From Kutzneria sp. 744 (GTDB lineage Bacteria > Actinomycetota > Actinomycetes > Mycobacteriales > Pseudonocardiaceae), in NCBI RefSeq assembly GCF_000568255.1, contig NZ_KK037166.1, positions 9,355,492 to 9,405,722 of the forward strand: a stretch of DNA of 50,231 nucleotides, written 5' to 3'. The notes below the pieces were generated by a model that had not been told where the DNA came from, did not search any database, and saw only the letters and a list, made by a program, of their open reading frames with translations. Of the stretch, positions 34,784-37,700 are shown piece after piece. The position numbers were made by a program, and so were the translations under genes. Position 1 is the first letter of the stretch. Each line of letters opens with the position of its first letter.

Positions 34784-37700
34784 GGGAGGCCTCCATGATC
34801 GCGGTGTCCACGTCCCTGCCGTCGGCCTCCGCACGGGCTCGCGCGGCCAGCACCCGCTTGTAGTCCTTGGGCATCACCTTGGTGAACCGGCCGACGGCCA
34901 GCTCCCAGTCGGCCAGCAGCAGGTCCGCCACCGCCGACTCGGTCTCGCGCCGGTGGCGGTCGATCACCTCGTGCAGGAAGGCCTGGTCGTCCTCGGTCAG
35001 CTCGTCCAGGTCGACCATCTCCTGGTTGACCCGCGCCGGGTTGAGGTCCAGCACGTACGCCACGCCGCCGGACATGCCGGCCGCGAAGTTGCGGCCGGTG
35101 GCGCCGAGCACGATCGCCCGCCCGCCGGTCATGTACTCGCAGCCGTGGTCGCCGACGCCCTCGACGACGGCCAGCGCGCCGGAGTTGCGCACGCAGAACC
35201 GCTCGCCGACCTTGCCCCGCAGGAACAGCTCGCCGCGGGTCGCGCCGTAGGCGATCACGTTGCCGGCAATGATGTTCTGCTCGGCCGTGAACGGCGCGGA
35301 CGGATCGGGGCGCACGGTGACGCGCCCGCCCGACAGGCCCTTGCCGAGGTAGTCGTTGGCGTCGCCGACCAGCCGCAGCGTGATGCCGCTGGGCAGGAAC
35401 GCGCCGAACGACTGCCCGGCGGTGCCCGTGAACGTCACGTCGATCGTGTCGTCCGGCAGACCCTCGCCGCCCCACCGCTTCGTGAGCTCCGAGCCGAGCA
35501 TGGTGCCCACGGTCCGGTTCACGTTGCGCACAGGCAGTTCCAGCCGAACCCGGTCGCCCGAGCCCAGGGCGCCCTCGGCCAGCTGGATCAGCGTGTTGTC
35601 CAACGCCTTCTCCAGCCCGTGGTCCTGGGCGGTGGTGCGGTGCCGGGCCGCGCGCGGCGGCAGCTCAGGCACGTGGAAGATCGGCGTCAGGTCGAGACCG
35701 GACGCCTTCCAGTGCTCGACCGCGCCCGCGGTGTCCAGCAGCTCGGCGTGCCCGACCGCCTCCTCCAGGGACCGGAAACCCAGCTGCGCCAACAGCTCCC
35801 GGACCTCCTGGGCGATGAACTCGAAAAGCGAGATTGTTACTAACACAATGATGTTCTGCTCGGCCGTGAACGGCGCGGACGGATCGGGGCGCACGGTGAC
35901 GCGCCCGCCCGACAGGCCCTTGCCGAGGTAGTCGTTGGCGTCGCCGACCAGCCGCAGCGTGATGCCGCTGGGCAGGAACGCGCCGAACGACTGCCCGGCG
36001 GTGCCCGTGAACGTCACGTCGATCGTGTCGTCCGGCAGACCCTCGCCGCCCCACCGCTTCGTGAGCTCCGAGCCGAGCATGGTGCCCACGGTCCGGTTCA
36101 CGTTGCGCACAGGCAGTTCCAGCCGAACCCGGTCGCCCGAGCCCAGGGCGCCCTCGGCCAGCTGGATCAGCGTGTTGTCCAACGCCTTCTCCAGCCCGTG
36201 GTCCTGGGCGGTGGTGCGGTGCCGGGCCGCGCGCGGCGGCAGCTCAGGCACGTGGAAGATCGGCGTCAGGTCGAGACCGGACGCCTTCCAGTGCTCGACC
36301 GCGCCCGCGGTGTCCAGCAGCTCGGCGTGCCCGACCGCCTCCTCCAGGGACCGGAAACCCAGCTGCGCCAACAGCTCCCGGACCTCCTGGGCGATGAACT
36401 CGAAGAAGTTCACCACGTACTCGGCCTTGCCGCTGAACTTCTCCCGCAGCACCGGGTTCTGCGTCGCCACGCCGACCGGGCACGTGTCCAGGTGGCAGAC
36501 CCGCATCATGATGCACCCGGACACCACCAGCGGCGCCGTGGCGAAGCCGAACTCCTCCGCGCCCAGCAGCGCGGCGATGATCACGTCCCGGCCGGTCTTG
36601 AGCTGGCCGTCGGTCTGCACCACGATGCGGTCGCGCAGCCGGTTGGCCAGCAGCGTCTGCTGCGTCTCGGCCAGGCCCAGCTCCCACGGCGCGCCGGCGT
36701 GCTTGATCGACGACAGCGGCGACGCGCCGGTGCCGCCGTCGTGACCGGAGATCAGCACCACGTCGGCGTGGGCCTTGGACACGCCCGCCGCGACCGTGCC
36801 GACGCCGACCTCGGACACCAGCTTCACGTGGATGCGGGCGGCCGGGTTGGCGTTCTTGAGGTCGTGGATGAGCTGGGCCAGGTCCTCGATCGAGTAGATG
36901 TCGTGGTGCGGCGGCGGGGAGATCAACCCGACGCCCGGCGTGGAGTGCCGGGTCTTGGCGATCCACGGGTAGACCTTGTTGCCGGGCAGCTGCCCGCCCT
37001 CGCCGGGCTTGGCGCCCTGCGCCATCTTGATCTGGATGTCCTCGGCGCTGACCAGGTACTCGCTGGTGACGCCGAACCGGCCGCTGGCCACCTGCTTGAT
37101 CTTCGAGCAGCGCTCGGGATCGTCGAGCCGGTCCGCGTCCTCGCCGCCCTCGCCCGTGTTGGACTTGGCGCCGAGCCGGTTCATCGCGATCGCCAGGATC
37201 TCGTGCATCTCCTTGGAGATCGAGCCGTAGGAGATGGCGCCGGTGGCGAACCGCTTGACGATCTCGGCGACCGGCTCGACCTCCTCGATCGGCACCGGCG
37301 GCCGCACACCGTCGCGGAACTTGAACAGCCCGCGAAGCGTCAGCAGCCGCTCGGCCTGGTCGTCGACCGCCTTGGTGTACTCCTTGAACACCTCGTACTG
37401 ACGGGTGCGGGTGGAGTGCTGGAGCTTGAACACCGTGGTCGGGTTGAACAGGTGCGCCTCGCCCTCGCGGCGCCACTGGTACTCGCCGCCCACCTCCAGC
37501 TCGCGGTGGCTGGCGTGCACGCCGTCGGCGGGGAACGCCTTGCGGTGCCGGCGGGCCACCTCCTCGGCGATCTCGTCGAAGCCGACGCCGCCCAGCCGCG
37601 AGGTGGTGCCGGTGAAGCAGTCGTCGATCACCTCGGCGCCGACGCCGATCGCCTCGAAGATCTGCGCGCCGGTGTAGGAGGCCACCGTGGACACGCCCAT

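Follow-up and report, generated by a model that had tools for sequence, protein, structure and literature searches.

An exact in-frame 559-bp repeat in gltB of Kutzneria sp. 744 is very probably a false join in a gapped draft assembly

The gltB gene of Kutzneria sp. 744, as written in the current draft genome, contains a 559-bp segment twice around 20 other bases, an arrangement that keeps the reading frame and lengthens the predicted protein to 1692 residues. On the sequence comparisons presented here, this tandem duplication is very probably an error of assembly and not biology. An assembly error is far likelier than a real duplication because the same structure recurs in the gapped draft. 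A false join is supported by the gapped state of the draft, by two further cases in it, by the uniqueness and low G+C of the fillers, and by the single copy in relatives.

The window, the whole stretch of 50,231 bp analyzed here, contains the following features (window coordinates; evidence in brackets):

1..50231, no strand: whole window, an uninterrupted stretch without N in a gapped scaffold (immediately preceded by 100 N and immediately followed by 444 N)
33344..34834, minus strand: gltD-like ORF, 496 aa, with Fer4_20 and Pyr_redox_2, adjoining gltB (ORF, families)
34776..39854, minus strand: gltB ORF, 1692 aa in the assembly; the true product is expected to have 1499 aa (ORF, Pfam, relatives)
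35267..35825, minus strand: first copy on the plus strand, corresponding to the 3′ part of gltB; proposed right end of a left-hand piece (exact 559-bp match)
35826..35845, no strand: 20-bp filler, 7/20 G+C; proposed spacer at a false join (composition, uniqueness searches)
35846..36404, minus strand: second copy on the plus strand; proposed left start of a right-hand piece (exact 559-bp match)

The original prediction had described two identical in-frame copies of 559 bp, offset by 579, and an exact self-match recovered them at the same coordinates, with zero differences between the copies and the 20 filler bases separating them. When offsets of 540–619 were tested over about 33000–40000, an exact run longer than 20 bp was found at 579 only; an exact repeat of 559 bp cannot have arisen by chance. 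The gltB frame is open through the repeat, whose copies correspond to residues 1151–1337 and 1344–1530 of the ORF. Pfam places the domains in the order GATase_2, Glu_syn_central, Glu_synthase and GXGXG, with the best Glu_synthase stretch at 803–1166 and the better of two GXGXG stretches at 1440–1623 (Pfam residue numbers are full-ORF numbers minus one), in agreement with the earlier view that the repeat spans the end of the synthase domain and the start of GXGXG. The claim of a GltB stretched from ~1499 to 1692 residues also holds for the sequence as assembled: removing one copy together with the filler leaves a stop-free GltB of exactly 1499 aa. A literature search found no paper naming ‘Kutzneria sp. 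744’ together with either ‘gltB’ or ‘Broad Institute’. Just beyond the 3′ end of the gltD-like ORF lies a 28-nt inverted repeat (33275–33331; arms 93% complementary, 1 nt between them), which may be a transcription terminator.

GltB of relatives has a single copy of the repeated segment. A protein search of 41 genomes, the strain’s own included, gave a GltB match in 40. The comparison with close relatives that had been suggested with the original prediction drew on 19 fetched gltB loci, of which 17 could be parsed (L018 and L023 were lost to the motif filter); all 17 are single-copy, the corresponding segment spanning 187–192 residues in them against 380 in the window ORF. The one-copy GltB aligns without gaps to four same-genus proteins (L006–L009), with 1422–1453 of 1499 residues identical (95–97%). 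A 100-bp probe across the filler matched in full only in the window’s own genome, and the filler joint is absent from all six other same-genus genomes, four of which hold both copy edges, one a single edge and one neither. Among the 80 named loci listed, Kutzneria viridogrisea has the top identity (87%).

The genome also contains a second gltB at 7791086–7795612, 68–70% identical to the first and with an unbroken 1544-aa frame; of the six other genomes of the genus that were searched, five have both paralogues. It is doubtful that the repeat-bearing gltB is essential, since this second, unbroken gltB exists. The suggestion that the repeat inactivates or remodels a nitrogen enzyme on which the cell depends is not supported: the long protein is probably nonexistent, and a second gltB is present.

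The genome is represented by a single contig of 11,646,492 bases, yet this contig is a scaffold with gaps. In 2.4 Mb sampled as six 400-kb blocks (of 11.65 Mb), we counted 120 runs of N, of which 83 are exactly 100 N and none is shorter, although some of the longer runs could be masks and not gaps; the median stretch between gaps in this sample is 9,952 bp. The window starts right after a 100-N run and stops right before a 444-N run. At the gap before it, the flanking stretch ends have 27 identical bases end to end, which is an overlap left unmerged. Among the 120 N gaps, no other shows an exact end-to-end flank overlap of at least 12 bp; at one further gap, 21 bases are common to both flanks, flush with one end and 3 bases from the other (78 gaps examined). 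A draft of K. spp. 744 is named, with SRX005446 and SRX005562, in the accessible part of one publication (PMC4210621). The KtzI encoded in the present genome equals PDB 4tlx at 408/409 aligned residues, and KtzI comes from Kutzneria sp. 744. The K. spp. 744 draft we take to be 454 data. Elsewhere, at genome positions 6011146–6012184 (L173:11146–12184), an exact second copy of 302 bp lies 435 bp further on and runs into an N gap. This second copy directly follows a stretch that, by its motifs, resembles the start of a 16S gene; a search of L173:9000–20000 against Rfam placed LSU and 5S rRNA downstream and returned no SSU at gathering score. Here, too, pieces were wrongly joined, this time at an rRNA operon.

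The arrangement found in gltB is not confined to that gene. We scanned the same 2.4 of 11.65 Mb for repeats of at least 200 bp with copies within 2.5 kb, with the qualification that the gltB case had chosen its own block. Five repeats were obtained: gltB itself, a diverged, natural-looking repeat at 21447, the faulty join at 6011146, and two that resemble gltB. One of these, at 6048187–6049185 (L175:8187–9185), has 491/490 bp in two copies separated by an 18-bp filler and covers the 3′ portion of a gene for a SpoU methylase (PF00588) together with bases past its stop. Among six other genomes of the genus, four carry each edge of this segment once, at a spacing of 489–492 bp, one has a single edge and one has none. 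The other, at 6255982–6256924 (L185:15982–16924), has 460/463 bp of an ORF, called transposase-like from reading and not from a family search, twice around a 20-bp filler; this filler length comes from wider-edge comparison and alignment, the chain count giving 23 owing to indels. In the transposase-like segment, two single bases are inserted in copy 2, about 25 and 50 bp past its start, and a single base is missing from copy 1 about 50 bp before its end. Every one of these indels puts the copy that carries it out of frame on the junction side, where the other copy reads on, as judged between the two copies and not against an intact relative. Two weak contig ends set next to each other would produce such a pattern. 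The SpoU case agrees less well with that picture, its copy differences lying about 80–90 and 350 bp into copy 2 and not at an end.

Control sequences showed no comparable arrangement. There was no repeat of at least 200 bp in 80 named-record loci (3.7–10.6 kb each, 0.80 Mb) or in the 19 relatives’ loci (0.13 Mb). A control block of 0.4 Mb from another genome (G005), devoid of N runs, contained two diverged repeats whose copies lie over 1.3 kb apart. A looser scan of that block listed a single repeat with a short spacer (233 bp, 92% identity, spacer of 58 bp with 74% GC), apparently ordinary repeat sequence. Set against none in 1.33 Mb of controls, the three cases in 2.4 Mb are no more than suggestive, the controls being too small to decide the matter alone.

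The filler bases differ in composition from the genome around them. Genome GC is 70%, and among 396,757 20-mers in the 400 kb around the gltB filler, 625 (0.16%) have as few as 7 G+C or fewer. Pooled, the three fillers have 26/58 G+C, a count with P about 6e-5 at 70% GC and unremarkable at 50%. The gltB filler occurs once in its own genome at up to 3 mismatches, and those of the SpoU and transposase-like cases each occur once at up to 2. Compared with the 20 bp just outside each copy, the gltB filler is equal at 4/20 and 2/20 positions. No exact match to it was found among viral contigs, and a 36-base query gave no match in E. coli genomes. Two matches to Rhizobium plasmids, at 89.7% over 29 bases (E 0.2), we took as chance. 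We know of no sequencing adapter or linker that fits the gltB filler. In some assemblers, gaps are given a minimum length of 20 bases. The lengths of 20 (gltB), 20 (transposase-like) and 18 (SpoU) point to a spacer fixed at 20 arbitrary bases, of inferred origin; the 18-bp filler is compatible with such a spacer because two chance matches at its edges would shorten 20 to 18.

A false join would account for the gltB repeat as follows. A left piece would end at 35825 and a right piece would begin at the genomic base that is also numbered 35267, so that the two pieces overlap by 559 bp. Merging of this overlap would have failed, and the pieces would have been abutted through a 20-bp spacer foreign to the gltB locus, supplied either by the junk tail of a read or by arbitrary bases put in to fill a gap of minimum size. 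The true gltB would then be an ordinary gene encoding 1499 residues. Several findings weigh against this account: the insert keeps the frame and is stop-free, as we estimate a random 20-bp spacer would be about 1/4 of the time; the gltB join contains no N; the gltB copies are without any difference, unlike those of the SpoU and transposase-like cases; and exact flank overlap is rare at the N gaps of the sample, while the SpoU differences avoid the copy ends. Among the readings offered with the original prediction (a recent event, slippage or mis-assembly), mis-assembly is strongly supported by the gapped draft, the recurrence with 18–20 bp low-GC fillers, the junction-side indels in one further case and the single-copy relatives, and slippage is disfavoured by the 20 unrelated bases between the copies.

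How probable, then, is a real duplication? That a break was recently end-joined with about 20 untemplated bases, giving a tandem duplication tolerated through the second GltB, is very improbable. The strain has the means, in that Ku is encoded (three matches over the cut-off) and a gltB paralogue exists, and both the kept reading frame and a unique filler, compatible with untemplated bases, agree with such an event; however, two more examples of the arrangement, with 18- and 20-bp fillers, lie within the 2.4 Mb sampled from a gapped draft, the transposase-like case has indels near its junction-side ends, and 99 other loci (0.93 Mb) lack any near-identical repeat of at least 200 bp. If real, the cases would amount to repeated untemplated end-joining duplications in one strain, and the second gltB would cover the loss of the repeat-bearing copy. 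This wider reading, under which gltB was truly duplicated in frame through a 20-bp joint made without a template, and which adds strain-wide end-joining duplications of ~500 bp with random joints of ~20 bases at the SpoU and transposase-like loci, is very improbable.

Replication slippage or unequal crossing over would leave a plain tandem duplication, and the copies are indeed exact and in direct orientation, but they do not abut, and the bases between them match the outer flanks poorly (4/20 and 2/20); this origin is disfavoured because 20 unrelated bases separate the copies, and it is scarcely credible. Equally hard to credit is a functional GltB variant in which the duplicated synthase/beta-helix part has been kept by selection. 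What favours it is the open frame only, whereas the copies have accumulated zero nucleotide differences, the variant is present in none of the 17 parsed relatives, and the filler has a base composition alien to this genome, as the scarcity of such 20-mers nearby indicates.

Taking the repeat as a probable false join, the 1692-aa GltB and the two other loci of this assembly are not to be read as biology. The arrangement may also serve as a signature of false joins in such drafts: about 450–560 bp written twice around 18–20 bp of low-GC filler, which can be flagged cheaply.

The gltB product of the window shares with the known GltB large subunit its order of GATase_2, Glu_syn_central, Glu_synthase and GXGXG and, with one copy, its length of 1499 aa; the ORF as assembled differs solely by 193 extra codons. 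False duplications in genome assemblies have been described, in the parts of the two reports available to us, for vertebrate genomes (PMC9516828, PMC2864568). The gltB repeat and those cases appear alike in that a single stretch is written more than once through an error of assembly. As far as the accessible part of PMC2864568 describes them, its cases concern diploid genomes in which divergent chromosomes were built twice, whereas the gltB case belongs to a bacterial draft and has a short spacer at the join.
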